A stretch of 24,993 nucleotides of DNA, taken from positions 1-24,993 of IMG/VR virus record IMGVR_UViG_3300047476_000131. The stretch is one strand, 5' to 3'. Origin of the DNA: a virus. Of the stretch, positions 2,309-22,591 are shown in pieces; position 1 is the first letter of the stretch; the number at the start of each line of letters is the position of its first letter. The notes under the pieces are model-generated. The model was not told where the DNA came from, did no database searches, and was given only the letters and a program-made list of their open reading frames with translations. Made by a program: the position numbers and the translations under genes.

Positions 2309-2309
2309 A

Positions 2310-3311
2310 TTAGTTTAGATAGAATTCCAGTACACCACCGTAATTGTTTTCCATCTCTGTTTCCAGTTGTTTAATTTCTTCTACTGCTTCTTGGTAAACA
2401 TCATTACCATTTAGTGTTACACCACCTGGTAACATTAGGCCACCAAATTTTTTCATATTGTTGCCCCACGATCTCTTAATCAGAGCAGTGGCATATTCTT
2501 TTAACCAACGATCATTCCAAACTTGTGTGAAATAATCGGGATTAATAGATGCATAACATTCTACAACCACAACGGTATCTTTTACTGCATCTGGTCTTTT
2601 TCCCCAACCCCAGTCAATGTACAACCTTTGCATATGTCTTTGGAATCGAATAGGAACCTCTCCAGAGAACAACTGTTCTAACATACGTAGATGTTGTTGC
2701 GTCATTGTATAATTTATATAGGACGCACTGGTGAAGTCATACAACTCATTCAATCTAAGTTGGTATCTTAGATCAAACATATTTACTGTTGCCTGTGAAT
2801 CTTGAATTGGAAATATTCTTGTAATACCAACTACATTTAAAGGCACACCTTGTGCATCGGTAATATTCCTCATGTCGAGATACCGATTGTCGATGTCTCC
2901 TGCGGTATAAGATGACACTACAGTATTTGTTGATTGTACATTACCGTTAGAATCATAATACTGTATAGATTCACCAACAGTAAAACTTCCACTAACGTCT
3001 TTTAACTCTAAAGTAGTTGTGTTAATTGATGATAAAATTTTTGCAGTTGCACCAGAAGTTCCACCCAATACAGTTACTATATTAGGAACTGATGATGATA
3101 TATTGGTATTTGCTGTTAATACAGACGTAGTTAATTTTCTAATATAATAGAATTTTTGCAGGCCGTCAAAATGATAGTCTTGCCAATACTGTAACGCATC
3201 GTCAATACGATCTTCGACCTGGTCGTCATCAACATTTATATCAATAACAGGAAAACCAAGTCGGCGTAAGCAATAGTCTTTGAAATTTTGTCTACTAGTA
3301 ATTGCTGCCAT
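2310..3311 (-). CDS. 13: Neck protein, T4 gp13-like
   Basis: This 333-residue protein corresponds to T4 gp13, partner of gp14 in head completion and neck assembly. The N-terminus carries the family segment LKDYCLRRLGFPVID-like (here FKDYCLRRLGFPVIDINVDD) followed by QVEDRIDDALQYWQDYHFDG. The C-terminal half has RLYIDWGWGKRPD, WNDRWLKEYATALIKRSWG and LPGGVTLNG, all typical of gp13. T4 gp13 is 309 residues; the extra material is around residues 72-137, a beta-rich insert with GGTSGATAKILSS, LELKDVSGSF and TVGESI. A clear GAGGAAAA Shine-Dalgarno precedes the ATG, and a late promoter box lies 28 nt further upstream. This gene opens the head/neck transcription unit gp13-14-15-16. Confidence 0.93.
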   Translation of the reverse strand: MAAITSRQNFKDYCLRRLGFPVIDINVDDDQVEDRIDDALQYWQDYHFDGLQKFYYIRKLTTSVLTANTNISSSVPNIVTVLGGTSGATAKILSSINTTTLELKDVSGSFTVGESIQYYDSNGNVQSTNTVVSSYTAGDIDNRYLDMRNITDAQGVPLNVVGITRIFPIQDSQATVNMFDLRYQLRLNELYDFTSASYINYTMTQQHLRMLEQLFSGEVPIRFQRHMQRLYIDWGWGKRPDAVKDTVVVVECYASINPDYFTQVWNDRWLKEYATALIKRSWGNNMKKFGGLMLPGGVTLNGNDVYQEAVEEIKQLETEMENNYGGVLEFYLN

Positions 3312-3319
3312 TTTTTCCT
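3312..3319 (-). promoter_or_regulatory. Ribosome binding site of gp13
   Basis: Read on the minus strand the bases just before the gp13 ATG are GAGGAAAA, a strong Shine-Dalgarno. It supports the chosen start and fits gp13 being the first gene of a transcript that cannot rely on coupling. Confidence 0.7.
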
Positions 3320-3338
3320 CGAATATTCTATGTATTCA

Positions 3339-3346
3339 TATTTATA
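3339..3346 (-). promoter_or_regulatory. T4-type late promoter -10 box before gp13
   Basis: The minus strand reads TATAAATA, the exact consensus of T4 late promoters, which are recognised by the sigma factor gp55 with no -35 element. It lies in the 42-nt gap between the five-LamG gene and gp13, 28 nt upstream of the gp13 ATG. It should drive gp13-gp14-gp15-gp16 and probably gp17. The sequence match is direct; use in vivo is inferred. Confidence 0.75.
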
Positions 3347-3353
3347 TACTATT

Positions 3354-6300: not shown

Positions 6301-7298
6301 ACATCTGTAGTATTGATAAAACACTCAATGGTAAAATCAGATGTACCAAATGCTAAATTATTATTTCCCGTAACATTTAAATAATTACCTGCTGAAAACC
6401 ACGCTGACCAATTTCTATTAAAAGGACTAAATGCACTAGGCTTAGCGTCGGCACCGACAGTTGACACTAATTTATTTGTACTATTATCTGTCAACCAATT
6501 ATAGTTGTTTGTTTTTAGAAGTAATGGAGTTACATTCAAGTATATGTCACCAAGAGTTATTGTGACGCTGAATAATTTTGAAGTATCTTGATACTCTAAG
6601 TCAGTTGCGATTATAGTGAATGAATATGTGGTTTCTGTTGATGTTGAAACAGTACCACTCAGTAATCCTCCGGTTGTTAATGATACACCACTAGGTAGAC
6701 TACTTCCATTATCTAACGAATAAGCAACAGTTGTATCTGAAGTTGCCACTAATTGAATACTAAATTCAACATTAGCGATTTGCTCGGCCAAAGGTGATGT
6801 TGTGATCCATGAAGGAGTACCACTGGCCACGATTCCTGATAACCTAATTGCAACACTATTATCAGGATTTACCACATAAACTTGTAAAGTTCCACTTGAC
6901 AATACAGGAGTGACCACTCTCAATTCTGTTGGGCTAACATATGTTGTTGATGTGGCCGCAGTTCCTTGTATATAAACTACCGCACCAGATTGAAAACCAA
7001 CACCAATCAGTTTTAAATAACCACCAGATGTACTGATAGCGGTATCATCAAGTATAGTCCAATTCGAATCAGTTACATATATGTTGGTGATTTCTACAGC
7101 TTGAGCTGCACCACCGCCAATAAGACGAGCATTTGTTGTGTCTACTGCACCAACACTGACATTAGACCAAGCAGTTGGAAAATTTAAAATGTGTGTTGCT
7201 GTTGCAGGCGCAATAGATATTTTATTACTTGTACCTACAGCTGCAGCAACAGAACTTCTATTTCTGCCTGTTTCTGATGATGTCAGTTTAATACTCAT
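3354..7298 (-). CDS. Virion adhesin with five LamG-type lectin domains
   Basis: This 1314-residue protein looks like a large virion-surface adhesin. Residues 1-65 are an unassigned N-terminus that may anchor it to the virion. Residues about 67-155 resemble an IPT/TIG Ig-like domain (GGYLKLIGVGFQSGAVVYI, SPTELRVVTP). Residues about 160-250 resemble a putative-Ig/cadherin-like domain (SLPSGVSLTTGGLLSGTV). Five concanavalin A-like LamG (Laminin_G_3 type) domains follow, at about 298-438, 502-648, 713-866, 934-1087 and 1150-1300. Each repeats F.GTSDFTIEFW, W.H(I/V)A(V/A)SR.SG, (M/L)F(L/I)(N/D)G and NGY(I/M)S(N/D)LR. Such domains usually bind glycans. The start overlaps the upstream stop by one base (TAATG), with a GGAG ribosome site inside the previous gene. 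The 109-residue protein before it may be a partner. Lectin fold is confident; ligand and virion position are inferred. Confidence 0.85.
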   Translation of the reverse strand: MSIKLTSSETGRNRSSVAAAVGTSNKISIAPATATHILNFPTAWSNVSVGAVDTTNARLIGGGAAQAVEITNIYVTDSNWTILDDTAISTSGGYLKLIGVGFQSGAVVYIQGTAATSTTYVSPTELRVVTPVLSSGTLQVYVVNPDNSVAIRLSGIVASGTPSWITTSPLAEQIANVEFSIQLVATSDTTVAYSLDNGSSLPSGVSLTTGGLLSGTVSTSTETTYSFTIIATDLEYQDTSKLFSVTITLGDIYLNVTPLLLKTNNYNWLTDNSTNKLVSTVGADAKPSAFSPFNRNWSAWFSAGNYLNVTGNNNLAFGTSDFTIECFINTTDVTTSSFIYDARSGANEFAPVLFMGAGAIYWYVNGVSRITSGTVVVNRWYHVVVSRVSGSTRMFLDGVQTGSTWVDSTNYISTRPLIGVNSAGSFWFYGFISNLRVLNGTGTTSPTVPTAPLTAIANTQLLTLESNSYKDNSNNNFTITKVGNSPIKSFGPFTETDLTTGSGNFDGTGDYVLVSNTTNLGIGTSDFTIEFWYYLNVAPAGSFNLMDQRSGSTSVAPYIIITSTQHAYGFGATNAIVASSAPVVASWTHLAVSRTSGVTKMFLNGRQIGSNYTDTNNYVNSRIYIGSRYDTTQVFNGYISNFRFVDGSSVYSANTTISSTPLEVVANTALLTLQNRMGENTYRFIDNSGHKHTLIRNGNITQTSFSPFSPNGWSTYFDGNGDYITVAANNTLQAIGTKDFTIECWINLTTIGGDIALAGDWKASPGRSWIWYITGSGTQLLFSWAAGTFHTANYTFQKDRWYHIAASRSGSILKMFVDGTEVSSNTLTNSIASTGTIYIGANNDSTSPTWLFNGYMSNLRLVIGTALYTANTTIQSNNLTAVTNTTILTFQSNRFIDNSTANNGSGFLLTPGGEVRAINYSPFRPTIAYDPELYGSSFYLDGSGDYLNATSNASLGFATSDWHIEFWVYPTSASNVRQDWIDINTSAGQRLLVYHNGTAITLFVNGAGVITANPLARYLWQWTHIAVSKVSGSTRLFINGQQSGVTYSDSLNYGAANPITIGKDSGGSTHVTGYMSDIILLKGKGLYTTSSSNIVPTSPLSLSNTVISNVASLLLTGRNSGMYDTTGRTTFEANNDVKVFNGISKFAGTSVYFDGNGDSLRLLANTVPALGTTDFTIEFWVYVVSFNSTNSAFIYEQRVAAGTVAPSITASSSNTVFINSGSVVITGSALTTNTWYHIAVARYSGNTKLFINGTQSGSTYLDTTNYVSQPILIGSSFNYGATNFLNGYIEDLRITKYARYSNNFPVPTNSFYTK
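3399..6407 (-). repeat. Five tandem LamG-type domain repeats
   Basis: The five lectin domains lie at about 5985-6407, 5355-5795, 4701-5162, 4038-4499 and 3399-3851. Each is about 140-155 residues and they are separated by linkers of some 60-70 residues. The linkers themselves look related, with TTI..S.LTAV.NT.LLTL and F.DNS motifs, so the duplicated unit is domain plus linker. Copies differ clearly in sequence, so the duplications are not recent. Confidence 0.8.
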
Positions 7299-8939: not shown

Positions 8940-9854
8940 TCACACTGTGAGAGTGTATTCATCAAAATAACCAGACACCTGATATGTGCCATCATACTTT
9001 CTTCTCTCAGCAACACCACTGTCTAGATTAATTTCATCAAATTCAAATGCTTTATAAGCTATTGCAGAAATTTGTGTTTTTGCAAATGGTGGTGCTAATG
9101 AACTCCAAGTGACACTATTGTTGTTAGTTACTGTAAAATTATTTGAACTTAAATCGGTTAAAAGATTATCACTATTTTGATGTATTAACAATATTTTGGT
9201 ATTAATTCCACTGATTGGTGAAACATTTGATGTTGCGTTTTGTGTTGTTGTAAGTTGTGTTCTAGGTACAGAAAAGTTACCTGTATATACTCCTACACCA
9301 TTTACGAATCTAAAATTAGTAATATATCCTGTACAAGATGATGAACCAATGTTATCATATGCACCAATAATCATAGGACCACCTTGTACAGTTATACTAG
9401 TAGTGGTTGTAGTTGATGCTACTCGAATACCATCCACATATACAGTAAAAGTGTTTCCTATACGAACAATTGCATAGTGATGCCATGCATTTAAACTTGG
9501 TAAAGTTCCACAATTTAAATTAAAAGACCATTGGCCTCCTATAACTTTTCCTAAATTTAAATAAAATTGAGAACCGCCAACATTCAGATAATAATTATTT
9601 GGTGCTTGTTGTCCTGCTGTACCATCATATGAAAATGGACAATCATAATTGCCTCGAAGTGTTTGGTACATCCAAAATTCAATAGTGTGATCGTTTGTTC
9701 CTAATGTGAAAGCACTATTTGCCGGCACACTTAAAAATTTACTTGATGCACCAATAAATTGTGCGCTACCACTATTAATTATTTCAATCTCATTAAGATC
9801 AACACTTGTCTCTAATACTCCTGTTGGATATAACTTGGAAATAGTTGTTGCCAT
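8940..9854 (-). CDS. Single-domain LamG-type lectin, tail-fibre associated
   Basis: This 304-residue protein carries one concanavalin A-like LamG (Laminin_G_3 type) domain at residues about 31-193: FLSVPANSAFTLGTNDHTIEFW, WHHYAIVRIGN, FTVYVDGIRVAS, and CTGYITNFRFVNGVGVY. The N-terminal 30 residues and the C-terminal third (about 200-304, ending in a YDGTYQVSGYFDEY segment) are not recognised and may attach the lectin to the fibre. Its ATG overlaps the stop of the 1661-residue fibre by one base (TAATG), so the two are co-translated. This suggests it is the glycan-binding tip or partner of that fibre. It is related in domain type to the five-LamG protein. Glycan binding is inferred from the fold family; the ligand is unknown. 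Confidence 0.82.
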   Translation of the reverse strand: MATTISKLYPTGVLETSVDLNEIEIINSGSAQFIGASSKFLSVPANSAFTLGTNDHTIEFWMYQTLRGNYDCPFSYDGTAGQQAPNNYYLNVGGSQFYLNLGKVIGGQWSFNLNCGTLPSLNAWHHYAIVRIGNTFTVYVDGIRVASTTTTTSITVQGGPMIIGAYDNIGSSSCTGYITNFRFVNGVGVYTGNFSVPRTQLTTTQNATSNVSPISGINTKILLIHQNSDNLLTDLSSNNFTVTNNNSVTWSSLAPPFAKTQISAIAYKAFEFDEINLDSGVAERRKYDGTYQVSGYFDEYTLTV

Positions 9855-12800
9855 TATCCAAACACCGTATCTAAACTATTTGTGGCAGCGTTATAGTATT
9901 GGTAAACCATACTTACATTCGATGTGTTTGAAAAACCAACTCTATTTCCAACATAAAGACTATCGGATACACCAACACCACCAATAACTAACAATGAACC
10001 AGTATTTGGTTTAGTTGAAGTTATATTAGAATTAACATTTAATGATCCAGTAATTGTATCACCAGATTTTAATACTCTATTATTCGCAGCAATAAATGCC
10101 GCATTAGCATGACCAAAAGAAGAAGCTGCATATGTATTTACTGCTGTTATACTAGTATTTTGTGTGGTATTAACACCTTGTATAATCGTAATATTATTGC
10201 TAGCTGTATTGGCAGTATTTCTAGCATATTGATCTATACTTGCAGCTGAAGCTGTATTGGCCTTATCAAACGCAGCCTGTGCTAATACATTTGCAGAGTT
10301 AGCTTTGTTGTAAGCTCCTGCTGCAAAAGTATTTACTGCTGTTATATTCGTATTCTGTGTATCATTAACACCTTGAGCGTAAATGGTATTAGATGATGCA
10401 GAGTTAGCAGTATTCCATGCATACGATGCTACTGAATCTGTAAAACTAATATTACCATCACCATCTGTTGTTAATAATTGTCCTGCAACACCACCATATA
10501 AGTGTACATTTTCAATGTTTCCTAGTGCAACATTAGAACCTTGTATGATTAAATTAGCATTTAATGTTGCGTCATGATTATGTGATAATCTAAGTATCTC
10601 ATTTACATGGTCAACACCATTAACTGCAAACACAATATCATTATTCAATGCTGCGGCCACTACAACATTACCACCACCTGTTGTTGTGTTACCATACACT
10701 AAGAAATAACCATCATTAGGATGTATTAAACCAAAACCAGGATAATTGTATGTACTACTTGCCATACCAACATCGGTATAACCTTCATCAAACGCACCAT
10801 TATCGGCCGTAATAATTAAGTCACCAGATGATTGATTTCCACTGTTAATATTTTGTATATTAATTTGTGAATAACCATTGTAGTCACTGGTTGCTTGTAT
10901 TGTTGTTTGTGGTTGTTGATAGAAACCCACAGGAATACCAGCATATAACGCACCAAAACCATATGCATCACCAAAGAATTGTCCACTATTACCTGTAATC
11001 GATGTCACATTACTTGTGAAATTAATATTACCGGTAACATTTAACTCACCAGTAATAACAACATTTCCACTAATAGTACCACCAGAACTATCGAACTTTA
11101 AGTTTGCGGTATTGTAAGATGCTTGTGCTAATATATTTGCTGAGTTGGCTTTATCGTATGCCGATCCAACGAATGTGTTTACTGCTGTTATATTCGTGTT
11201 TTGAGTGTTATTAACACCTTGTGTATATACTGTATTGGCTGAAGCGTTATTCGCAACATCAAATGCTGCCTGTGCTAACGTACCAACAGTATTAGATTTT
11301 GCGTATGCACTTGTTGAGTAATCATAAAGGTCTAAACCATTAACTACTGCTGTAGAACCAATTAAGTTGCCTTTAAATGTTTGAGCATTTAAGTTGGCCT
11401 TACTGAAAGATGGATCGTTTATGTCAATGTTATTACTTGTTGATAACTCAGGAGTATAACCTTGGAAAACATAAAACTCTTTTGCTACGGCATCTCTGAT
11501 AAGTCCAGCATGAGCATTTGTGCCGTCATTATAATGTCCCGCAAAACCAATATCTAATAAGTCTGAGGTATAATTTCCAATACCCAACACAATCATCGAA
11601 TCTTGTACACTGAGAGTAGATGTGTTGATTGTAGTTGTGTTACCCAATACATGTAAATTACCAGTCACACTTAGGTCTTTAGTGATAGTTACATCGCCTG
11701 ATACTGTACCACCGGTATTAACAAATGTTGCACCTACATTTGCTTGATCGAATGAAGAATTTGCATGGCCATAAGCACTGGTTGCATAGGTGCTAACGGC
11801 AGTAATATTAGTATTTTGAGTATTATCTACGCTTTGTATAATACTAATGGCGGCATTTTGTGTTAAATCCACACCTTGTATAATACTTATGGCAGTATTC
11901 TGTGTTAAATCTACACCTTGTATGGCACCGATTTCTGCATTTTGTGTGTTATCTACGCCTTGTATAATACTAATAGATGCATTTTGTGTTAAATCTACAC
12001 CCTGACTATAAATGGTATTTGCGGCCGCAGAGTTGGCTGTATCTCTAGCATATTGGTCAGCTGTAATAGATGTATTAGCTTTGTCGAATGCTGCTTGTGC
12101 TAGAACACTAGTAGAATTTGCTTTGTCAAATGCATCCTGAGATAAAGTACCAACCGTGTTGGCTTTTGTAAAGGCTGCATTTGCTTGATTGTATGCTGCA
12201 CCACTTGTTATATCAATTTCAGAAATATTGGTATTCTGTGTAGTATTAACACCTTGTAGAATCGTAATATTAGATGTAGCCGTATTAGCTGTGTCAAATG
12301 CCGATTGTGCTAGTACGTTTGCAGAGTTCGCTTTATCATAAGCTGATCCAGCAAAAGTATTTACGTGACTAATGTTAGTGTTTTGTGTATCATTAACACC
12401 TTGTGTATAAATGGTATTTGCTGCAGCACTATTCGCTGTGTCAAATGCCGATTGTGCTAGTACGTTAGCTGAATTTGCCTTATCGTAAGAACTAGAAGCT
12501 AATGTATTAGTTGCTGATATATTGGTGTTTTGTGTATCATTAACACCTTGTGTATACACTGTATTTGATGATGCTGTGTTAGCAGTATTAAAAGATGCTT
12601 GTGCAAAATCAAAAGTTGTTTTAACAGCCAATGGAGTTGCGGCATTTGCACCAGATACACCTAACGTAGAAGAAATACTATCACTTAATTCTACAACACC
12701 TTTTACTGATCCGGTTGCTGTTTGTGGTGAAGCAACACCGGCAGATATAATACGACCGTTAGCAGCATAACCAATAACTGGAATTTGTGTAGAACTACCA

Positions 12801-14839
12801 ACAGTTGAACCAGGTATTGATATGTTTGTTACATCAGTATTTGCTTTATCGAACGCTGACTGTGCTAGTGCATTTGCCAAATTTGCTTTATCGTATGCAC
12901 CTGAGGTAAATGTATTTACTGCTGTTATGTCAGTATTCTGTGTATCATTAACACCCTGTAGAATTACAGTATTCGATGCCGCAGTATTGGCTGTATCTCT
13001 AGCATACTGGTCTATACTTGCATTTCCAGCTGTATTGGCCTTATCAAATGCGGCTTGCGCTAATGTATTAGAACTATTAGCCTTATCATAAGCACCAGAT
13101 GCGTAGGTATCAATTGCTAATATATTGTTGTTCTGTGTTAAATCTACACCTTGATTGTATACAGAATTTGTTAATGCAGTATTAGCAGTATCAAATCCGG
13201 CCTGTGCTAATGTACCAACAGTATTGGCTTTACTAAATGAACTCGTTGCATAGTCATATAAATCTAAACCATTAACTACGGCACTTGAACCAATTAAGTT
13301 GCCTTTAAAATAAGATGCATAAACGTTTGCATATCTAAATGAAGAATGGTTTAAATCAATTAAATTATTTGATTGTACTTCAGGTGTATAACCTTTGAAG
13401 AATATCCACTCTTTTAAATTAGGATCACGGAAAATACCTGTGTGTGCATTAATGCCATCATTGTAGTTTCCTATGATACCAATATCAACAGCGTCACTAG
13501 TATAATTGTTTGCACCCAAATAAAGTAGAGGATCACCTACAATAATTTCAGATACATCAATAGTCGTTGCAGTACCTAAAACATTTAGATTGCCACTAAC
13601 TATAACATTTTCAGCGAAAGAAACATTACCTGATACTGTACCACCAGTGTTAACAAATGTTGCACCTACATTTGCTTGGTTAAACGCTGCGTTAGCATGT
13701 GTATAAGAACTACCAACTAAATTTTCTACAGAGGTAATTCTTGAATTTTGAGTTACATTAACACCTTGTATTACTGTAATATTGTTGTTTTGGGTTAAAT
13801 TTACTCCATACAATACAGAAATATCGGTGTTCTGTGTATTATTAATGCCCTGAAGAATTACTGTATTGGATGCCGCAGTATTGGCTGTATCTCTAGCATA
13901 CTGGTCTGAACTGGTTGAAACACCAGTATTAGCTTTATCAAACGCTGCTTGCGCCAGTATATTTGTTGTGTTGGCGTGATCGAATGATACTTGTGCGTGA
14001 TCGTAGGCTGACTTAACTGCTAATGGTGTAGCTGCATTTGCACCAGAACTACCTGATGTTGATGTTATACTGTCATTTAATTGTACAACACCTCTTACGG
14101 ATCCTGTACCAATTTGTGGTGAAGTTACACCTACTGAGGTGATACGTCCATTGGCCGCATAGGTGATAACTGGAATTTGAGTAGAACTACCAACAGAACT
14201 TCCCACTAATGATACGTTTGTTACATCAGTGTTGGCTCTATTTCTAGCAAATTGATCTATTGCTGAACCTGTTATTGAACTGTTAGCTGTATCTCTAGCG
14301 TATTGGTCTACTGCTGAACCACTTGATGAATTGTTAGCTAAATCTCTAGCAACTTGGTCTATTGCAGTGCCAGTAAATGCGGTATTTTGTAATGTGTTAT
14401 CAGGAAATGTTAATTTGCCATCTGAACCAAGACTTAATCTGTAAATGCCATTAACTAAGTTGGCTGTATCTGGTTGTGGAACCGCAGTATTACTAATAGA
14501 TGTAATAAGGCCGTTTGCAGAAACTTGAATAACTGGAATATCAGTTTGTCCACCATAATAACCAGGTGTTAAACCATTTATATTATTTAATACTGCACCG
14601 TAGAATTGTCCGTTAGCGTCACGTTTTACTAATGTATTTGCTACGGCATTAGGTGTTGCAGCATCAATAGTTTGAGTATAAAGTTGTCCACCTACATTTA
14701 AAGTGCCATCACTAGTAGGAGAACCAATAAAAAAAGTATTAGATAGGTATGAATAAGCTATTTCACCCGATTCTAGAAAGGGTGGAATTGCTGTTACGAG
14801 CGAACGTTTAATTATAACGCCGGTGTTTGATGTAGCCAT
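9854..14839 (-). CDS. Giant repeat-rich tail fibre protein
   Basis: This 1661-residue protein is the longest in the window and reads as a long tail fibre subunit. Residues 1-50 (IIKRSLVTAIPPFLESGEIA, NTFFIGSPTSDG) look like an N-terminal particle-binding domain of tail fibres. Residues about 203-290 and 670-755 are two copies of a unit with STQIPVI.YAANGRI and GVV(Q/E)L.DSI.ST, the latter like the Phage_fiber_2 repeat. Residues 390-530 and 1034-1174 are two copies of a 141-residue beta module. Between them lie long Asn/Ala/Thr-rich repeats (QGVNDTQNT, DKANSANVLAQAAFD) with 14- and 49-residue periods. Residues about 1250-1480 are a unique globular region and the protein ends in a short ITGSLNVNSNI segment. 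There is no S74 chaperone. It has an AGGGAAG ribosome site and a perfect late promoter box upstream, and is coupled to the LamG gene downstream. Confidence 0.85.
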   Translation of the reverse strand: MATSNTGVIIKRSLVTAIPPFLESGEIAYSYLSNTFFIGSPTSDGTLNVGGQLYTQTIDAATPNAVANTLVKRDANGQFYGAVLNNINGLTPGYYGGQTDIPVIQVSANGLITSISNTAVPQPDTANLVNGIYRLSLGSDGKLTFPDNTLQNTAFTGTAIDQVARDLANNSSSGSAVDQYARDTANSSITGSAIDQFARNRANTDVTNVSLVGSSVGSSTQIPVITYAANGRITSVGVTSPQIGTGSVRGVVQLNDSITSTSGSSGANAATPLAVKSAYDHAQVSFDHANTTNILAQAAFDKANTGVSTSSDQYARDTANTAASNTVILQGINNTQNTDISVLYGVNLTQNNNITVIQGVNVTQNSRITSVENLVGSSYTHANAAFNQANVGATFVNTGGTVSGNVSFAENVIVSGNLNVLGTATTIDVSEIIVGDPLLYLGANNYTSDAVDIGIIGNYNDGINAHTGIFRDPNLKEWIFFKGYTPEVQSNNLIDLNHSSFRYANVYASYFKGNLIGSSAVVNGLDLYDYATSSFSKANTVGTLAQAGFDTANTALTNSVYNQGVDLTQNNNILAIDTYASGAYDKANSSNTLAQAAFDKANTAGNASIDQYARDTANTAASNTVILQGVNDTQNTDITAVNTFTSGAYDKANLANALAQSAFDKANTDVTNISIPGSTVGSSTQIPVIGYAANGRIISAGVASPQTATGSVKGVVELSDSISSTLGVSGANAATPLAVKTTFDFAQASFNTANTASSNTVYTQGVNDTQNTNISATNTLASSSYDKANSANVLAQSAFDTANSAAANTIYTQGVNDTQNTNISHVNTFAGSAYDKANSANVLAQSAFDTANTATSNITILQGVNTTQNTNISEIDITSGAAYNQANAAFTKANTVGTLSQDAFDKANSTSVLAQAAFDKANTSITADQYARDTANSAAANTIYSQGVDLTQNASISIIQGVDNTQNAEIGAIQGVDLTQNTAISIIQGVDLTQNAAISIIQSVDNTQNTNITAVSTYATSAYGHANSSFDQANVGATFVNTGGTVSGDVTITKDLSVTGNLHVLGNTTTINTSTLSVQDSMIVLGIGNYTSDLLDIGFAGHYNDGTNAHAGLIRDAVAKEFYVFQGYTPELSTSNNIDINDPSFSKANLNAQTFKGNLIGSTAVVNGLDLYDYSTSAYAKSNTVGTLAQAAFDVANNASANTVYTQGVNNTQNTNITAVNTFVGSAYDKANSANILAQASYNTANLKFDSSGGTISGNVVITGELNVTGNINFTSNVTSITGNSGQFFGDAYGFGALYAGIPVGFYQQPQTTIQATSDYNGYSQINIQNINSGNQSSGDLIITADNGAFDEGYTDVGMASSTYNYPGFGLIHPNDGYFLVYGNTTTGGGNVVVAAALNNDIVFAVNGVDHVNEILRLSHNHDATLNANLIIQGSNVALGNIENVHLYGGVAGQLLTTDGDGNISFTDSVASYAWNTANSASSNTIYAQGVNDTQNTNITAVNTFAAGAYNKANSANVLAQAAFDKANTASAASIDQYARNTANTASNNITIIQGVNTTQNTSITAVNTYAASSFGHANAAFIAANNRVLKSGDTITGSLNVNSNITSTKPNTGSLLVIGGVGVSDSLYVGNRVGFSNTSNVSMVYQYYNAATNSLDTVFG
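11318..11740 (-). repeat. Second copy of a 141-residue fibre module
   Basis: Residues 1034-1174 of the giant fibre run from NVGATFVNTGGTVSG to VVNGLDLYDY. The module includes GNLHVLGNTTTI, a YTSD..DIGF.G.YNDG.NAH.G segment and FKGNLIGS. It pairs with the copy at 13250-13672, with the same length and no need for gaps. A similar module occurs in other marine phage fibres, as I recall. Confidence 0.8.
11795..12004 (-). repeat. Five tandem 42-nt (14-residue) repeats
   Basis: Residues 946-1015 of the giant fibre are five consecutive 14-residue units of the form QGVDLTQN.AISII. In DNA they appear as a 42-nt period with strongly similar copies. Fourteen residues is two heptads. Confidence 0.85.
12110..12550 (-). 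repeat. 49-residue (147-nt) tandem repeats in the giant fibre
   Basis: QGVN units begin at residues 764, 813 and 862, exactly 49 residues apart, each followed by DTQNTNIS or TTQNTNIS, an Asn/Thr-rich stretch and KANSANVLAQSAFDTAN. They are the same family and period as the repeats at 8231-8671. Confidence 0.75.
13250..13672 (-). repeat. First copy of a 141-residue fibre module
   Basis: Residues 390-530 of the giant fibre contain NVGATFVNTGGTVSGN, GNLNVLGTATTI, YTSDAVDIGIIGNYNDG and VVNGLDLYDY. The module aligns over its whole length with residues 1034-1174, with conserved ends and a more divergent middle. Confidence 0.8.
13727..13852 (-). repeat. Three tandem 42-nt (14-residue) repeats
   Basis: Residues 330-371 of the giant fibre are three 14-residue units: QGINNTQNTDISVL, YGVNLTQNNNITVI and QGVNVTQNSRITSV. 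They are the same family as the five copies at 11795-12004. Confidence 0.8.
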
Positions 14840-14881: not shown

Positions 14882-15124
14882 TTAGAACACTCCTCCATCA
14901 AACTTACCGGGAATTTCACCTGTTGTTGCAGCCAATGACGTTTCAGCTGCAACTAGTGCCGTACTGGAATCAGCAACGGCCTGTGCAGACGCAGCTAAGG
15001 CTTCATTTACTTTTGTGGCAAGACCAGAACCTACAAAAGTTGTAGTTCCTGTTACTGTCTGTTGTTGGCCTTGATTAACACGAACACTTATTGATTGTAT
15101 TGGGTTGACTGTTACGTTTGGCAT
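14882..15124 (-). CDS. Small virion-associated protein, unknown function
   Basis: This 80-residue protein is not assigned to a named family. Residues 1-35 are beta-like and Val/Thr/Gln-rich (VTVNPIQSISVRVNQGQQQ). Residues 36-70 are an alanine-rich helix (NEALAASAQAVADSSTALVAAETSL) that could form a coiled coil. It ends IPGKFDGGVF. The N-terminal pattern resembles the first part of marine phage fibre proteins, so it may be a short fibre-like or adaptor protein. The ATG follows the previous stop by one base (TAA-A-ATG). It is the last gene before a late promoter gap. There is no signal peptide and no cysteine. Confidence 0.55.
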   Translation of the reverse strand: MPNVTVNPIQSISVRVNQGQQQTVTGTTTFVGSGLATKVNEALAASAQAVADSSTALVAAETSLAATTGEIPGKFDGGVF

Positions 15125-15125
15125 T

Positions 15126-15470
15126 TTATCTGGTTACCGATGGAGAGATGTGTATTTGCCCCTCAAGAACTCTAGTCACCGTACCATATACTTGATCTGT
15201 AATAATAACATCATAAACCAATTTTTGAGTTGCGCTTATTGCTGCTGTAGTATTTGAATTTGCTGTCAGTGTTACAATTCCAGTATTAGCATTTGCAATA
15301 ACAGTACCAAAATTAATTACAACATTTGAAGAATAGTAAGATTTTCTGGCTTGACTTCTTATTGTAAAATCGTTCAGGTCATAAGGGTATCCATTACTAT
15401 CCGTCAGAGTTAACTCTGTACTGAATGTTGTGCCTTGTTCCAAAAATAAATCTTGATATGCTGCAGCCAT
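15126..15470 (-). CDS. Ig-like/BppU-like small structural protein
   Basis: This is a complete 114-residue beta-rich protein. The pattern of an opening FLEQGTTFSTELTLTDSNG, then DLNDFTIRSQARKSYYSS, a TGIVTLTANSNTTAAI segment and a closing YDVIITD...GTVTRVLEGQIHISPSVT is one I recognise from marine phage tail regions. There it is sometimes described as resembling the N-terminal domain of baseplate upper protein BppU. It is probably a small baseplate or fibre-attachment component. It has a good AGGAAAA ribosome site in the 8-nt gap after the 76-residue gene. The exact role is unknown. Confidence 0.6.
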   Translation of the reverse strand: MAAAYQDLFLEQGTTFSTELTLTDSNGYPYDLNDFTIRSQARKSYYSSNVVINFGTVIANANTGIVTLTANSNTTAAISATQKLVYDVIITDQVYGTVTRVLEGQIHISPSVTR

Positions 15471-15478
15471 TTATTTTC

Positions 15479-15709
15479 CTATTTTGCAAATTGTTCTACT
15501 AAATGTTTTTTAATTTGTTCTTCATCTATAGTGGTGTTATTCCACACTTCATGTCCTTCGGATGTTAACTCAACAATACTGTAAGGTTGTTGGTGTGTAT
15601 GGGACATGTACAAATTATAAGCTCTTTCAGATACTAATTTTAAACATTCATCAAGAGTTTCTACAGTGGTATATAGACCATCTGAAGGATTAAAAACTTT
15701 ATATTTCAT
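15479..15709 (-). CDS. Small protein of unknown function next to the adhesin
   Basis: I do not recognise this 76-residue protein. It is charged and soluble-looking, with a beta-like start (MKYKVFNPSDGLYTTVE), a helix (LDECLKLVSERAYNLYMSH), a strand around YSIVEL and a C-terminal helix (DEEQIKKHLVEQFAK). Its composition is unlike the Asn/Thr-rich fibre proteins around it. It starts 2 nt after the adhesin stop without a clear Shine-Dalgarno, so translation is probably coupled. The place just after a glycine-rich adhesin is where phages sometimes encode an assembly chaperone, but nothing in the sequence proves that here. Confidence 0.55.
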   Translation of the reverse strand: MKYKVFNPSDGLYTTVETLDECLKLVSERAYNLYMSHTHQQPYSIVELTSEGHEVWNNTTIDEEQIKKHLVEQFAK

Positions 15710-15711
15710 AA

Positions 15712-17292
15712 TTAAACTACAGCACCATATAAAGTTCCTGGTGCAGCAATTATTAACTGTTTACCGTTTTTCTCAATGGCTTTTCCACCAAGACCTACTG
15801 AAACTACATCAACTGCCGGAGTAATAGAACCTATACCTCCAGAAGCACCCCAACCTCCACCACCACCGCCACCATCTGTGGTTGCAACAGCTGTACCATT
15901 GGAACCTACTGCATCTAGAGTTCCACCTTGGCCGCCTTTGGCTTGTGCAGGTAATCCACTTGCTCCACCGCCGCCACCTCCTGTGCCGCCACCAAGGCCT
16001 CGAACATCAACACCAGGTATTCCGCCTTGACCGCCAGTTCCATTTGGAATTCTTCCACCACCGCCACCAGAACCATATTGACTTCCTGTTGCTGATGTAG
16101 CAATACTACCAGAAGAACCAGATAATCCTATTGCGCCACCAGCACCACCGGCAGCTACAGAACCAGTAGATGATCCTCCAGTAAATGATGCTGTTGCAGT
16201 TATCATGGCGTTAGTGCCCTCACCTGTAACTACAAACAGTGAACTATTTGGATCTGCACCTTTTATTCCCATGAAAACGAAAGCTCTTCTTTGTGATGTC
16301 CATGTTGATGGGTTAGTTGCAGGAGCTCCAAAATTACTTGTTAAATAATCTCTTACTGCTAGTGTCATAGTAGCAGCATCTAAAACTTCCATTAAAACAA
16401 TTCTACCAGTAGGTAAATTCTGTAAAGCTATAAGTAACGCATTACTGTCGTTTAGATCGCCTGTTCTATTTGGCCATGTATCGTAACATACTGCTGATTC
16501 TACGGCTGAGTTTTGTGGATTTAATACCACAACATTTATACCTCTACTACTTAATGGTATATCTCCTACGTTTCCTATTACTGGTGGATTAAATTTATGT
16601 AGTCCCGTTCTATCTGGACATGTTATCTTAGTACCAAAAACACTGATAAATGCATTGTTTGCTTTACCGTTATTTGCTATTCCAAATGTTGTTGCATCAT
16701 AACCTACACTTCTGACAATAATATCACCTGTAGGATTACTTTCAAATGCACCAGTAGCTATTGAACCAAAATTCAAAGTAGCTGATGTACTGGAACCACT
16801 ACCTAGTGAACCACCATATGTTGATCCACCATAACCACCACCGGCACCACCGCCTCCTGATCCTGATGTTGATCTATTTGCAGCTGCACCGCCGCCTCCA
16901 CCACCAGCGATAAAGTTATAATTGAATATTGTTGTATTAGCACTTAATGATATGGCCGTGCCACCATTTGTGGCTGCAACAGTACCTAATTCTCCACCAT
17001 AGGCACCACCGTCGCCACCACGACCCATTATATAACCTTTATTGATAACGTAGATGGTGTCGTTTGCGTTCCATCCACTAACTGTTAACGCTGGTGTAGA
17101 AATACTGTTTGAGTATAGGTAGATATTATCTGATATTGTTAATGTTGCAGTAGTGTTGCCTGCTATATAACCAGGAACTTTGTCAGGACTAAAAGTGTAT
17201 GTTTCAGTGTTTGACGTTAAGTTTGCATACAACAATGGACCATTGGTAGGATTACTACTACCACCAATCATTAACATGGAGATTATACTCAT
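15712..17292 (-). CDS. Glycine-rich adhesin with an internal FAM3/GG-type domain
   Basis: This 526-residue protein is a probable receptor-binding adhesin. Residues 1-90 form a beta-rich N-terminus ending YVINKGYIMGRGGDGG. Residues about 91-165 and 372-497 are glycine-rich with runs of up to eight or so Gly, like the polyglycine-helix segments of gp38-type adhesins from T-even phages. Between them, residues about 186-370 read as a GG (FAM3/ILEI-like) domain: RGINVVVLNPQNS, CYDTWPN, LPTGRIVLMEVLDAAT and RRAFVFMGIKGAD match the order of motifs in FAM3 proteins. The only two cysteines, C225 and C269, both fall in this domain. The C-terminus ends GKQLIIAAPGTLYGAVV. It starts 1 nt after the repeat-fibre stop. 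The gp38-like role is inferred from glycine content and position; the GG domain call is stronger. Confidence 0.82.
   Translation of the reverse strand: MSIISMLMIGGSSNPTNGPLLYANLTSNTETYTFSPDKVPGYIAGNTTATLTISDNIYLYSNSISTPALTVSGWNANDTIYVINKGYIMGRGGDGGAYGGELGTVAATNGGTAISLSANTTIFNYNFIAGGGGGGAAANRSTSGSGGGGAGGGYGGSTYGGSLGSGSSTSATLNFGSIATGAFESNPTGDIIVRSVGYDATTFGIANNGKANNAFISVFGTKITCPDRTGLHKFNPPVIGNVGDIPLSSRGINVVVLNPQNSAVESAVCYDTWPNRTGDLNDSNALLIALQNLPTGRIVLMEVLDAATMTLAVRDYLTSNFGAPATNPSTWTSQRRAFVFMGIKGADPNSSLFVVTGEGTNAMITATASFTGGSSTGSVAAGGAGGAIGLSGSSGSIATSATGSQYGSGGGGGRIPNGTGGQGGIPGVDVRGLGGGTGGGGGGASGLPAQAKGGQGGTLDAVGSNGTAVATTDGGGGGGGWGASGGIGSITPAVDVVSVGLGGKAIEKNGKQLIIAAPGTLYGAVV
16183..16737 (-). other. 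FAM3/ILEI-like GG domain region
   Basis: This encodes residues about 186-370 of the adhesin. The sequence order RG-hydrophobic strand-NP, C.D.W, a helix DSNALLIALQNLP, TGRIVLMEVLD, a helix in LAVRDYLTSNFG, and RRAFVFMGIKG follows the core of animal FAM3 proteins, where RGLNIAL, FDMW, GTLVFVASYDD and SWVFVGAKG occupy the same places. GG domains have been reported in phage long-tail-fibre proteins as well as in FAM3 and POMGNT1. Confidence 0.8.
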
Positions 17293-17293
17293 A

Positions 17294-18544
17294 TTAATTT
17301 AATCCTGCACCACTAATTACGAAATTGTTTGCAGCAAAACATAATATTGTGGCTAATCCATACTGACCCAGTGAAGTATTACCTCTTGTTCCTCGACCAG
17401 CAAAGAAGATGTTTGCGTTGGGTGCATTAGCAATATTCATTGCAAGAATAGAGTTATTGAAAATAGTAACAACATTACCTGTACCAAAAACATTATTTGG
17501 CACAACAACATAACCATTGGTAATTGAAATGTGTCGGCCGTTATCTTCTGATGTCAAGACATAAGATGAGGTTTTACTATTTTGTGGAATAGACCTTAAA
17601 CTTCCATATCGATCCGAAACTGAATACATTACTAAGTTTGGTTCAATATTTGATGATCTAATATTACCAGCAATCTGAGTATTGGCGATATTGATAATCT
17701 GATTGTTGGAAATTAAAGTAACAATGGTATTAGACCAAACATCTAAAATCTGGCTTGCTCTAATATTTCCAGTAATCTTCGTATTGGCGATATTAGCGAT
17801 CTGTGTATTAGAGATAAGTCCTGTTAATACATTACTATTTACATTTGAAATCTGTGCAGCATTAATCAAACCAGCAATCTGAGTATTAGCAATATTAATA
17901 ATTTGATTATTGGAAATTAATGTAACAATGGTATTAGACCAAACATCGAGAATTTGGCTTGCTCTAATATTTCCAGTAATTTTAGTATTGGCAATGTTAG
18001 CAATCTGGGTATTGGAAATCAAACCAGTCAATACATTGCTATTTACATTAGAAATCTGTGCTGCATTAATTAAACCAGAAATTTTTGTATTTGCAATACT
18101 TACAATCTGACTTGATGTAATTCCTGAACTTAGTTTAGAACCATCTATACCTGTAGCAAGTTGGTCATTAGTAATTAATCCGATAATCTTAGTGTTAGAA
18201 ATATTAGCAATCTGTGTATTGGAAATAAGTCCTGTTAACACGTTGCTATTTACATTAGAAATTTGTGCTGCATTGATTGTACCAATAATTTTTGTATTGG
18301 AGATATTAATAATCTGATTATTGGAGATTAAACCAATAATACTATTACTATACACATTTGCAACTTGATCGGCAGATAGTCTTGTACTAATTTGAGTATT
18401 GGCGATACTAATGAGGACATTAGATGCCGAATAAATTCTACCTTGTGAATCAACACCTATTCGTGGAACACTATTTGCTAGACCATAGACCGTATTACTA
18501 ACTGCGGTATTTGCTAAAACTGATCCTGTTACCTTTGTAGTCAT
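17294..18544 (-). CDS. Repeat tail fibre, likely beta-solenoid shaft with C-terminal knob
   Basis: This 416-residue protein has a short N-terminus with GVDSQGRIYSASN, then residues about 45-295 made of repeats of 15-17 residues of the type ISNTQIANIANTKITGNI. Regularly spaced Ile and Asn suggest a beta-solenoid or triple-stranded beta shaft. Residues 157-224 and 225-292 are an exact 68-residue tandem duplication. Residues about 318-416 form a C-terminal domain (TSSYVLTSEDNGRHISI, VVVPNNVFGTGNVVTIFN, LGQYGLATILCFAANNFVISGAGLN) of a type found at the ends of many phage tail proteins. An AGGGAAA ribosome site lies in the end of the previous gene, whose stop directly abuts this ATG. It is probably a side or short tail fibre; partner unknown. 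Confidence 0.8.
   Translation of the reverse strand: MTTKVTGSVLANTAVSNTVYGLANSVPRIGVDSQGRIYSASNVLISIANTQISTRLSADQVANVYSNSIIGLISNNQIINISNTKIIGTINAAQISNVNSNVLTGLISNTQIANISNTKIIGLITNDQLATGIDGSKLSSGITSSQIVSIANTKISGLINAAQISNVNSNVLTGLISNTQIANIANTKITGNIRASQILDVWSNTIVTLISNNQIINIANTQIAGLINAAQISNVNSNVLTGLISNTQIANIANTKITGNIRASQILDVWSNTIVTLISNNQIINIANTQIAGNIRSSNIEPNLVMYSVSDRYGSLRSIPQNSKTSSYVLTSEDNGRHISITNGYVVVPNNVFGTGNVVTIFNNSILAMNIANAPNANIFFAGRGTRGNTSLGQYGLATILCFAANNFVISGAGLN
17669..18076 (-). repeat. Perfect 68-residue tandem duplication (2 x 204 nt)
   Basis: Residues 157-224 (17873-18076) and 225-292 (17669-17872) of the 416-residue fibre are identical in protein, from GLINAAQ to NTQIA. By my hand alignment the two DNA copies differ at about 26 of 204 positions, all silent. 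Confidence 0.9.
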
Positions 18545-18856
18545 TTATTGTTTCCCTTTTAGTACATCCACTTCATGTTTCAAATCTTTGACTTGCTGAT
18601 TTAGTTCTTTAATTGCTTCAATCAATAGTACAGTTAAGTGTTCATATCGAACGGCCTTACTTGTTTGTTCTGCACCTAATGGTGTGAAGTCATAGACAAC
18701 TTCAGGAACAATTGGTTGTATCTCTTGAGCAATAACACCAAGTAGTCTGGTTTTGTTTGCATCTGATTTATAGTTATAGTAATAACCATTAATATTTGTT
18801 ATCTTATCTAGTGCAGTATCAATTCTTACGATGTTTTCTTTCAAGTTAACATCTGA
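18545..18856 (-). other. Peptidase S74 intramolecular chaperone domain
   Basis: This encodes residues 1246-1348. Cleavage is expected just before S1246 (codon 18854-18856), releasing a fragment of about 103 residues. The catalytic pair S1246/K1251, G1285 and the A-Q-E triplet at 1288-1290 are all present, so the domain looks active. The end (LNQQVKDLKHEVDVLKGK) is a typical coiled coil. Confidence 0.88.
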
Positions 18857-21800
18857 AGGTGAACCAAACGCAGTCATGTTACCTAATGATACTAGGTTAC
18901 CTGATGGATCAAGTGACATAAGAGATGTAAACGTAGTGCCAGCACTCTTGAACCAATTATGTGTATTACCTACCATCTGGTACATAGAACCAGTAGTTGC
19001 AGCACTATCAGCAGTCCAACTTCCATTATACCATGTATGGTTCGAGAAGTGTGCATAGTTAGTCGAACCTGATCCGGATGATATGTATGTATTACCAATC
19101 TTTGCAAAACTATTCTGTACTATGTTCAACGATCCAACAGTAGTATTTGCAGCAACACCCACACCAACAGAACCAAATTGAACTTGAGCTGTTGTGCCAT
19201 GTTGTGCAGCACTTATTGTTCCAGTAAGATTAGCTGTAGGTAAACTTATAGGCACATTGGTTGCACTTGTTATACGACCAGCAGCATCTACTGCGAATGA
19301 TGAGACATATCCTGCACCACCATAAGATGCGGCAGTAACACCAGAATTATTTAAATTAGCTGATGTGAATACACCAGTAACTTGAGTATTAGCAACACGT
19401 ATGATTACGTTTGATATTGCAGTAACACGTCCTGCTGCATCTACTGTTACAGAAGGAACAAATGCTGTATTACCATATGTGTTTACTGTAACACCAGTTG
19501 TTGTTAAGTTTGCTGATGAGAACAGGCCAGTAACTTGTGTACTTGGTATGATTAAATTACCATTAGAAGCTGCGGTAATTCTACCAGCATCATCTACAGT
19601 AATTATAGGATAAGTTGTTGTGTTACCATATGTTCTTGATAAAACACCAGTTGTTGTTAAGTTCGCTGATGAGAATAGGCCAGTAACTTGTGTACTTGGT
19701 ATTCTTATAAATGTGTTAGTTACTGATGTGATTCTACCTTTTGCATCTACAGTAATAGTTATAGATGTGTTTGTATTACCAAATGTACCAGCAGTAATGA
19801 GGTTTGGTAAATCAGGTTGAGCTGCTGTATTGGATACTGCTGTGATACGACCCGCAGGATCTACAGTTATTACTGGAATATAAGTGCTGTTACCAAAAGT
19901 AATACTTGAAAGATTACCTGTGGCGATTGTTACACCTGTATTTGTTAAGTTTGCTGATGAGAAACGACCAGTAATTTGTGTGTTAGCAACACTTACGTAT
20001 ACGTTTGATGCACCTGTAACACGTCCATTGGCATCTACGGTGAATGAAGGATAGAATGTAGTGTTGCCATATGTGGATGCCACAACACCGGTACCAGTTA
20101 AATTGGCAGAAGATAATAATAGTCCACTCACTGACGATGCAGGAATGGCCATTTTAACATTCGATACTGCTGTAACACGACCAGCTGCATCTACAGTTAT
20201 TACTGGTGTAAAGGTGGCATTTCCGTGTGGTGCATTAATATTAGTAGTAAGAAGTGTATTCAAGTTTGCTGATGTGAATACACCAACAACTTGTGTATTG
20301 TTTACGTTAGCAATTTGAGAACTTCTTATAAAACCACTAATCTTATTATTTGCTATCGCAGTAATCCAAGATGGATCTGAATATGATTGATTTGTGTATA
20401 TACCATTTGTTACTGTGGCAGCGTTACCAGCAATATTCATTGAGAATGTGTTGCCACTATTCAATGCATTTTTTACAAATGCAGTTGTAGCAATCATTGT
20501 ATTGCTTGTATTTACATGTGCTGTTACAGATTGTGGTGTATTCGATAGAACAACATTATTTCTCCATGCAACATTACCTATAATTGCATCGATTACTAAT
20601 TGAACTGTATTTGCATTTGTGCCTGTCCAATATGTGTTTGGAGTGAAGGCCGTGTTGTTTGCATAGTATGTTGTGTTCGCATAACCATCAACTTCAAATA
20701 GAATGTTGGTGCCAGGTTTAGGTGAATTGTCAAAATTATTAGTAACAGTATTAAATGATACTATTACACTATTCGATTCTCTATATTCTGATGGGTGTTG
20801 TCTTACACCGTCAATATAAACTCTTAATTGTCCTGAACCTGGAACATATGAAGGAACAAGATAAGAATTACCTGTACCATTTCCAGTATAAGTTAATCTA
20901 GACGTTCTAATGATTGAACCTGGTGTACTACCTGGTGCAGAAACATTATCTGATGATGTCCAGAAATAACTTCCTAATCCATTTGTTGCTAAGACTTGAC
21001 CAACTCCGGTAGAAGCAGGTAACAGTGAATCTAAAGCGCCAGCAGTAGATGTAGCACCTGTACCACCTTGAGTTACCGCTAATGCATTAGTTAACGTCAG
21101 ACCATCAAATGTTGGACTAGCTGTTGTTCTTAAATCTTGTGAAGTGTTAACAGTTAATACGTTGCCTGAACCCACAACGGTAACTCCATTATCACTCACA
21201 AAGGATATTATTCCATTATCTGGCGCAGCAGAACCTGTTGTACCAATAACTGAATTTAATGATGCGTTAGCTCTTGCATAAGCTGAAGTTGAGTATTCGC
21301 CTACTGTGTTTGCATAATTAAATGCTGATTGTCCTATATTATAGGCAGCGTTGGCCTGTCCTCTTACCCAAAGATCAAGTGCGTTATTTGCTGCGGTATA
21401 TGCTAGTTGTGCTGTGCTTAATCCTGTATTTGCAGTATTGTATGCGTTCTGTGCTAGTATATTTGCTGAGTTTGCTTTATCAAAAGCTGCGTTGGCATAT
21501 TCTCTAACCCAACTATCTTGAGCATTATTTGCAGTATTGAATCCTGCATTTGCCACATTAGCTGCATTATTTGCTGCATTAAATGCCGCTTGTGCAAATA
21601 GATTATTTAATTGAATACTATTATTCAGTGTGTTTGCGGCATTAGCACTAGCAGCATAAGTTGCACCAGAAGGTGTAGTAAAATCTAGATTAACTGAATC
21701 ACTTAAAACTTCTGATGTTAAAATTCTGTAAAAATTATCGTTTGTATATTTTGTTGGGAAGTTTGCTGTTGGACCTAATGAACTAATTTCCCAATATAAT

Positions 21801-22591
21801 TTAGTGGAGTTGTATTTAATTTCTGCATTGATACCACCACTTACAGACCTATCTTTTCTGATAGAAACGTTTGCTGAAACTGTACCTGTTGTAGCAGGAA
21901 AAATAATTGAACCGTTACTTACAGTGGTACCATCAAGTGAAAGTCCACCAGAAGATGAACCAGTTCCACCAACACTGAAACCACCATCACCAACAACAAT
22001 ACCTTTAACATAGGCCATTGCATTGTTAGCATCAATTAAGGTAGTTACGTTTGCTGTTCCTGTATTAATTCTTGTATTAATGCTGGAGAATATTGCAGTG
22101 TTTGTACTGTCGGTGTAATTCTTTGCAGCAGTTAAAGTTAAGGAGTCATTCGCCTGTAGGAATGCATTTGCAGTATCTACATAACTTGTTACATCACCTT
22201 GTGTACTGAATAGGCGACCAACAATCGTTAAGTTACCACTAATAATAGCGTTATTCGAAACAACTAGGCCAGTATTCGCACCATTGGCATAAATTATACC
22301 ATTTGAAGTTAGTGTAGTAGAGGTGTTTGTAAGTTCAATTGTGCCACCAACACGTAGGTTGTTCTGTATGTACGCACCAGAACCTATACCTTGAACTTGC
22401 ATCTGAGATGCAAAAATGGCGTTACTGGTTACCTGTAGACCCAAAGTCGGATCATTTAAATATAATGTGCCTGTATCTTTTACATAAAGACCTGATGCAA
22501 AATTATTGTTCTCTTTAACCAGATTGTTGGTTGTAACCATCCAATCACCATAGGTGTTGGCATAACTTAATAGATTAACTGTATTAGCCAT
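18545..22591 (-). CDS. Tail fibre/spike with C-terminal S74 self-cleaving chaperone
   Basis: This 1348-residue protein is a trimeric-type tail fibre. Residues 1-130 hold beta repeats (NLRVGGTIELTN, NLTIVG). Residues about 310-445 are Ala/Asn-rich helix-like repeats (NAAFDKANSANILAQNAYNTAN). Residues about 460-545 contain the common fibre motif VTQGGTGATSTAGAL. Residues about 560-640 include VYIDGVRQHPSEY, and ATTAFVKNAL is near 701. Residues about 765-1115 have seven VDAAGR(I/V)T units. The last 103 residues are an S74 intramolecular chaperone: S1246-D-V-N-L-K1251-E-N-I matches the Ser/Lys pair of endosialidase-type domains, followed by LLGVIAQEIQPIVPEVV and a terminal coiled coil. In that family the chaperone trimerises the fibre and cuts itself off before the Ser. 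It overlaps the upstream 75-residue gene by 8 nt. Confidence 0.88.
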   Translation of the reverse strand: MANTVNLLSYANTYGDWMVTTNNLVKENNNFASGLYVKDTGTLYLNDPTLGLQVTSNAIFASQMQVQGIGSGAYIQNNLRVGGTIELTNTSTTLTSNGIIYANGANTGLVVSNNAIISGNLTIVGRLFSTQGDVTSYVDTANAFLQANDSLTLTAAKNYTDSTNTAIFSSINTRINTGTANVTTLIDANNAMAYVKGIVVGDGGFSVGGTGSSSGGLSLDGTTVSNGSIIFPATTGTVSANVSIRKDRSVSGGINAEIKYNSTKLYWEISSLGPTANFPTKYTNDNFYRILTSEVLSDSVNLDFTTPSGATYAASANAANTLNNSIQLNNLFAQAAFNAANNAANVANAGFNTANNAQDSWVREYANAAFDKANSANILAQNAYNTANTGLSTAQLAYTAANNALDLWVRGQANAAYNIGQSAFNYANTVGEYSTSAYARANASLNSVIGTTGSAAPDNGIISFVSDNGVTVVGSGNVLTVNTSQDLRTTASPTFDGLTLTNALAVTQGGTGATSTAGALDSLLPASTGVGQVLATNGLGSYFWTSSDNVSAPGSTPGSIIRTSRLTYTGNGTGNSYLVPSYVPGSGQLRVYIDGVRQHPSEYRESNSVIVSFNTVTNNFDNSPKPGTNILFEVDGYANTTYYANNTAFTPNTYWTGTNANTVQLVIDAIIGNVAWRNNVVLSNTPQSVTAHVNTSNTMIATTAFVKNALNSGNTFSMNIAGNAATVTNGIYTNQSYSDPSWITAIANNKISGFIRSSQIANVNNTQVVGVFTSANLNTLLTTNINAPHGNATFTPVITVDAAGRVTAVSNVKMAIPASSVSGLLLSSANLTGTGVVASTYGNTTFYPSFTVDANGRVTGASNVYVSVANTQITGRFSSANLTNTGVTIATGNLSSITFGNSTYIPVITVDPAGRITAVSNTAAQPDLPNLITAGTFGNTNTSITITVDAKGRITSVTNTFIRIPSTQVTGLFSSANLTTTGVLSRTYGNTTTYPIITVDDAGRITAASNGNLIIPSTQVTGLFSSANLTTTGVTVNTYGNTAFVPSVTVDAAGRVTAISNVIIRVANTQVTGVFTSANLNNSGVTAASYGGAGYVSSFAVDAAGRITSATNVPISLPTANLTGTISAAQHGTTAQVQFGSVGVGVAANTTVGSLNIVQNSFAKIGNTYISSGSGSTNYAHFSNHTWYNGSWTADSAATTGSMYQMVGNTHNWFKSAGTTFTSLMSLDPSGNLVSLGNMTAFGSPSDVNLKENIVRIDTALDKITNINGYYYNYKSDANKTRLLGVIAQEIQPIVPEVVYDFTPLGAEQTSKAVRYEHLTVLLIEAIKELNQQVKDLKHEVDVLKGKQ
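19247..20287 (-). repeat. Roughly 50-residue VDAAGRIT repeats in the S74 fibre
   Basis: Residues about 769-1115 contain seven units with a VD.AGR(I/V)T.(V/A)(S/T)N core and, in most, a (V/I)TG.FSSANL(T/N) start. Spacing is 38 to 58 residues; most units are 51-52. The same core appears once near the start of the 416-residue fibre (GVDSQGRIYSASN) and in related form in the giant fibre (YAANGRITSVG). Confidence 0.75.

Follow-up and report, generated by a model that had tools for sequence, protein, structure and literature searches.

A GG/ILEI domain between glycine-rich blocks of a gp38-like candidate adhesin in a probable T4-like phage

The adhesin gene and its neighbourhood

The window, by which we mean the whole stretch of DNA analysed, is a 24,993-base fragment of the virus record IMGVR_UViG_3300047476_000131, which derives from environmental DNA. 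A tail-fibre operon lies within it (Table 1), in which a candidate adhesin of 526 amino acids is encoded by a single open reading frame. The frame, strand and coordinates given for this gene in an earlier note, made from the letters alone, were correct. An artefact or a frameshift was ruled out, since there is one open frame and it is conserved in a homologous contig (L002). The gene beside it encodes a 416-aa fibre-like protein for which no significant family match was found. This 416-aa gene contains a near-repeat of about 204 bases at window positions 17666-18331 (2.2 copies with an 85% match, or 3.1 copies at 77%), so the shaft of the fibre was probably extended by duplication. Tandem arrays were also seen in the two long fibre genes, at 11825-12001, 12224-12570, 14230-14365 and 19466-19786, with periods of 42, 147, 51 and 153 and copies about 74-78% alike.

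With its neck, sheath-stabiliser and baseplate genes, the window is consistent with a T4-like myovirus. The 114-aa protein of the fibre operon matched Kyanoviridae phages of Pelagibacter and Methylophilales, together with Prochlorococcus and Synechococcus cyanophages. The virus is best explained as a T4-like phage related to the Kyanoviridae phages of Pelagibacter or Methylophilales. Elsewhere in the window, 3354-7298 and 8940-9854 shared the same baseplate-wedge/virion PHROGs. The first region was matched at as many as five places along its length, which hints at repeated domains.

Table 1. Features of the adhesin gene and its neighbours (window positions)
Feature	Position	Strand	Basis or remark
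80-aa protein	14882..15124	-	ORF; syntenic in L002
114-aa protein, "L-shaped tail fiber protein assembly"	15126..15470	-	phrog_1084 and phrog_3304
76-aa protein downstream of adhesin	15479..15709	-	No PHROG match; syntenic in L002
Adhesin ORF P0001, 526 aa	15712..17292	-	ORF; Pfam GP38 and ILEI; homologue in L002 with same architecture
Residues 498-526 and stop, C-terminal cap	15712..15801	-	29/29 residues same in L002; weak gp38-cap-like signal
Residues 372-497, second glycine-rich block, about eight Gly motifs	15802..16179	-	gp38 homology inseparable from composition
Residues 187-371, complete GG/ILEI (FAM3/POMGnT1-stem) domain	16180..16734	-	Profile, alignment, model
Residues 250-346, Pfam ILEI core	16255..16545	-	Pfam
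R335 codon (= POMGnT1 R207)	16288..16290	-	Invariant 16/16
D305 codon (= POMGnT1 D179)	16378..16380	-	Invariant 16/16
R250 codon (= POMGnT1 R129)	16543..16545	-	Invariant 16/16
Residues 166-186, variable linker into GG domain	16735..16797	-	38% identity to L002, 9 gap columns
Residues ~90-165, first glycine-rich block, about five Gly motifs	16798..17025	-	
Residues 45-89, gp38-like, ahead of first Gly motif	17026..17160	-	PF05268 match 45-160 = profile 25-137
Residues 1-44, N-terminal segment, presumed fibre anchor	17161..17292	-	Sequence; GP38 match from profile position 25; S16 gp38 comparison (PMC6851490)
416-aa fibre gene, candidate (presumed) adhesin carrier	17294..18544	-	1-base gap upstream; syntenic in L002
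1348-aa tail fibre, C-terminal Peptidase_S74 chaperone	18545..22591	-	

Identity and predicted fold of the GG/ILEI domain

The earlier note had proposed that a FAM3/GG-type domain lies between two glycine-rich blocks of the adhesin, on the strength of four motifs in FAM3/ILEI order. These were located at residues 250 (RGINVVVLNP), 269 (CYDTWPN), 295 (TGRIVLMEVLD) and 335 (RRAFVFMGIKG), and the proposed identity was borne out by sequence, profile and fold. The Pfam profile PF15711 (ILEI) matched residues 250-346 along its whole length (positions 1-90 of 90) with 46.9 bits and an E-value of 4e-12, against a cut-off of 27 bits, and so well outside what chance would give. Both the alignment and the model extend the domain past this Pfam core, to about residues 187-371, close to the limits of 186-370 that had been guessed.

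A GG profile made from 16 aligned domains, drawn from viral contigs, a KSB1 genome and named phages, was run against all PDB sequences. It retrieved the POMGnT1 stem (5ggj, 4.6e-13), FAM3A (9e-12), FAM3C (3e-10), FAM3B (4e-9) and TMEM2 (3e-7), and nothing beyond these families below 0.05. An acid phosphatase stood at the top of a single-sequence PDB search (E 0.01-0.7); it was judged a chance match, and the profile search was taken as decisive.

The model predicted for residues 166-378 had a mean pLDDT of 67.5 and a pTM of 0.73. Its superposition on the POMGnT1 stem (5ggf) gave a Z-score of 15.0 over 142 residues at 2.7 Å, and FAM3A, FAM3B and FAM3C followed with Z of about 14, the next unrelated fold reaching 2.7. 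Foldseek again returned the POMGnT1 and FAM3 families, and the segment did not turn out to continue the surrounding beta structure. From profile and model together, the middle segment of the adhesin is confirmed as a GG/ILEI domain, with a predicted fold of the beta-beta-alpha type seen in FAM3 and the POMGnT1 stem.

Glycine-rich blocks and likeness to gp38

The blocks had been placed at about residues 91-165 and 372-497, and composition bore this out: the share of glycine is 38% for residues 89-165 and 40% for residues 372-497, against 9% for residues 166-371 between them. The gp38-like context suggested for them was likewise supported. PF05268 (GP38) matched residues 45-210 with 32.5 bits at a cut-off of 25 bits, and the N-terminal 162 residues alone scored 43.3 bits; the homologue in L002 scored 28.0 bits.

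In S16 gp38, two extensions that leave a beta-helix make up ten polyglycine-II helices packed in one lattice (PMC6851490). Two of these helices precede the return to the beta-helix and eight follow it, and the distal loops are variable (PMC6851490; for PP01, PMC12892980). The first block of the adhesin reads, in order, GRGGDGG, GGELGT..NGG as second Gly motif, a non-glycine segment, GGGGGG, a loop, GGGGAGGG and YGGSTYGG, after which the GG domain begins. This order matches that of S16 gp38 (GRGGxGG ... GGGGGG - loop - GGGG). Both blocks together contain about 13 Gly motifs, and the S16 gp38 lattice has ten. Given that the start of the GG domain aligns approximately with the S16 gp38 loop after the fifth Gly motif, a distal loop position for the domain is plausible.

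The second block scored against the gp38 profile no higher than its own shuffles did, and its score was for this reason not counted as evidence for gp38. Against a gp38-cap profile, 73 or 254 out of 3000 shuffles scored at least as high as the C-terminal cap, which beat only about 92-98% of them. The last 54 residues of the adhesin matched positions 726-774 of the 775 positions of phrog_11439 at an E-value of only 0.64, and positions 575-695 of the same family fit the first block. A full-length AlphaFold model made from two sequences had a mean pLDDT of 28.6. No Trp occurs in residues 1-73, and the S16-type N-terminal attachment domain, in which three conserved Trp plug into gp37 (PMC6851490), is thus absent; "gp38-like" is therefore the apt term for the adhesin, and not gp38. 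Residues 45-165, by their profile match, form the beginning of a polyglycine adhesin of gp38 type. The rest of this glycine-rich body is most likely supplied by residues 372-526, whose homology to gp38 is only suggestive. Both blocks would then be held in one lattice, from which the GG domain would protrude.

The sugar-contact triad

A passage of PMC9802357, citing Kuwabara 2016, names R129, D179 and R207 as the residues of the POMGnT1 stem that contact beta-GlcNAc. When R129 was anchored on the RG motif, the aligned Asp fell exactly on D179 and the aligned Arg exactly on R207. The equivalents in the adhesin (R250, D305 and R335) were invariant in all 16 aligned GG domains. FAM3C and FAM3A bound a GlcNAc-conjugated resin (PMC9802357). 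A POMGnT1-stem-like module in the Tal protein of Streptococcus phage TP-778L has been described as a carbohydrate-binding module that keeps the Arg and Asp (PMC9437275); its Pfam ILEI score of 27.6 bits is just above the cut-off, and the adhesin GG domain alone reached TP-778L weakly by tblastn (E 2). Given the invariant triad and this published phage module of the same fold (PMC9437275), the GG domain of the adhesin is probably a sugar binder.

Relatives and divergence

The earlier note had proposed a survey of related phages. The adhesin homologue at 4001-5626 of L002 is 70% identical, with the same architecture and the same gene order. Between the two, residues 43-88 are 96% identical and the cap is identical throughout; the linker ahead of the GG domain was the most variable piece. 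The dN values were 0.087 for the N part, 0.282 for the GG domain and 0.140 for the C part, and the corresponding dS values were 0.764, 0.765 and 0.515. The GG part thus had a dN 3.2 times that of the N part at equal dS, with a dN/dS of 0.37. Since dS is equal in both parts, the insert evolves faster as a protein; it is not older, and the exchange of a diverged GG domain between the two phages, which was also considered, is unsupported. The raised dN of the GG domain may reflect relaxed constraint.

Scans of viral contigs with the N part, the C part or the whole adhesin found L002 only. The whole adhesin or its Gly-rich N-terminus gave no tblastn match in phages, at least in part because the low-complexity filter masks glycine runs. 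In 14 further contigs carrying a relative of the 114-aa gene, the GG domain was not found. The slot ahead of that gene was empty in L008 and L013-L019, and elsewhere it held other fibre tips, some of them Gly_rich_2. In L008-L019 this site, flanked by the S74 fibre gene and the 114-aa gene around 1600-4000, appeared as a hot spot, holding either nothing or small genes along with one or two genes for fibre tips, Gly-rich or of another kind. The related contig G005 (L026, 1291-2250), from one of these phages, encodes a 319-aa uninterrupted gp38-like protein without a GG domain, not in the same slot; it matched PF05268 over profile positions 5-216 with 22.7 bits, under the cut-off of 25.

The architecture had been described as unfamiliar, and within these limited searches it proved so: none of the other phage GG proteins examined (from 19 contigs and two named phages) had the domain among polyglycine blocks. 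In L036-L049 (e.g. L037 3632-4297 and L041 3392-4273), a family of proteins of about 210-290 aa have a GG domain at the C-terminal end; some members come from phage contigs as large as 288 kb and 356 kb. Among genome contigs, the GG profile found one bacterial GG protein, from candidate division KSB1, in an unrelated context. This is a long protein (L051, 4001-4300) whose ILEI-like domain apparently has a second RG...D copy.

Discussion

We consider it fairly probable that the locus encodes a gp38-type polyglycine adhesin into which a GG domain of about 185 residues has been inserted, and that this domain touches a sugar of the host surface. The protein would be the host-recognition tip that caps or accompanies one tail fibre. 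Its polyglycine body would begin in residues 45-165 and be completed by residues 372-526, and the GG domain would be exposed at roughly the site of a variable distal loop in S16 gp38. The Arg-Asp-Arg pocket may bind the sugar, and recognition in adsorption would then proceed through a lectin-like domain, instead of or beside short loops.

The two glycine-rich blocks might also be independent polyglycine or flexible domains in tandem with the GG domain, and not a single gp38 body. Each is rich enough in glycine to fold alone, the C-terminal block by itself has no significant gp38 match, and separate Gly_rich_2 tips occur in relatives. Such a tandem nevertheless seems rather unlikely to us, because the first block stops after about five Gly motifs, whereas S16 gp38 has ten per lattice (PMC6851490), because the L026 protein has an uninterrupted gp38-like body, albeit with a PF05268 match under the cut-off, and because phrog_11439 fits the first block and, at its very end, weakly matches the C-terminal 54 residues (E only 0.64).

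Host contact could instead fall to loops in the polyglycine blocks, the arrangement of T2, S16 and PP01, if the GG domain served as a structural spacer or connector, presumably its function in gp35. PP01 gp38 touches its receptor with loops D and E (PMC12892980), and the second block of the adhesin carries variable segments of its own; RB43, RB16 and PS2 have GG domains in their gp35 hinge connectors, where a structural role is as likely. A triad kept without exception argues against a spacer, however, as does the finding that insert and linker are the fastest-changing part of the adhesin, unlike an internal connector. The domain is moreover not at a fibre-segment joint, and we hold this explanation to be unlikely. 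We consider it very unlikely that the GG domain has degenerated, or that its partner is a protein instead of a sugar, in the manner of FAM3-like signalling. The signalling roles of the FAM3 family and the raised dN would agree with it, but dN/dS is well under 1, the triad is intact, and the GlcNAc-conjugated resin was bound by FAM3C and FAM3A themselves (PMC9802357).

The favoured reading, a GG domain inserted into a polyglycine adhesin, has several points of contact with known systems. The adhesin shares the N-terminal half and the Gly-motif order of gp38 of T2, S16 and PP01 (PF05268; PDB 6F45, 9V85). The gp38 gene directly follows that of the gp37-type fibre; the adhesin gene comes 1 base after that of the fibre-like 416-aa protein, a candidate counterpart. 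It differs from gp38 in its length (526 aa against about 250-260 aa), in lacking the three-Trp attachment domain, in having the GG domain at the short loop of gp38, and in a weak C-terminal homology. With the POMGnT1 stem, which binds beta-GlcNAc (PDB 5ggf-5ggp), it shares the fold, the profile match and the triad, whereas its own GG domain is in a phage protein with a Gly-rich context and its binding is predicted. The Tal of TP-778L (PMC9437275), another phage adhesion device, carries in its CBM_1 a GG/ILEI domain that keeps the triad's Arg and Asp. This Tal is trimeric and belongs to a siphophage, and its GG/ILEI domain is preceded by a collagen-like linker, whereas the domain of the window protein is located between glycine-rich blocks of a gp38-like adhesin. 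The gp35 hinge connectors (RB43, RB16 and Serratia phage PS2) contain the same GG family in a T4-like long-tail-fibre protein, at the hinge and not at the tip. The L026 protein, from a related phage, has a gp38-like start and a Gly-motif body as the adhesin does, but has another N-terminus, no GG domain and a different slot.

GG domains in phage fibres are already known, as a passage of PMC3742443 cites, and so are gp38 polyglycine adhesins; it is their combination that appears new. Open-access papers yielded no report of it, and scans that needed short exact motifs found it elsewhere only in L002, so that the architecture is known from two sequences, the window adhesin and its L002 homologue.

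Gp38-type adhesins are thought to owe changes of specificity to short loops that connect their polyglycine helices (PMC6851490, PMC12892980). We suggest, tentatively and with somewhat less confidence than we place in the insertion itself, that a complete GG/FAM3 lectin of eukaryote type here stands on a gp38 polyglycine-II lattice at the site of a variable distal loop, and that phages of this group could change host by exchange of a whole sugar-binding domain on a rigid polyglycine scaffold and not only by loop residues. If a whole lectin domain fits between Gly motifs, the polyglycine body would be a scaffold that accepts domains. The GG domain, found in animal FAM3, POMGnT1 and TMEM2 and in phage fibres, would also be tied more closely to the recognition of sugars, because no aligned member has lost the POMGnT1 triad.
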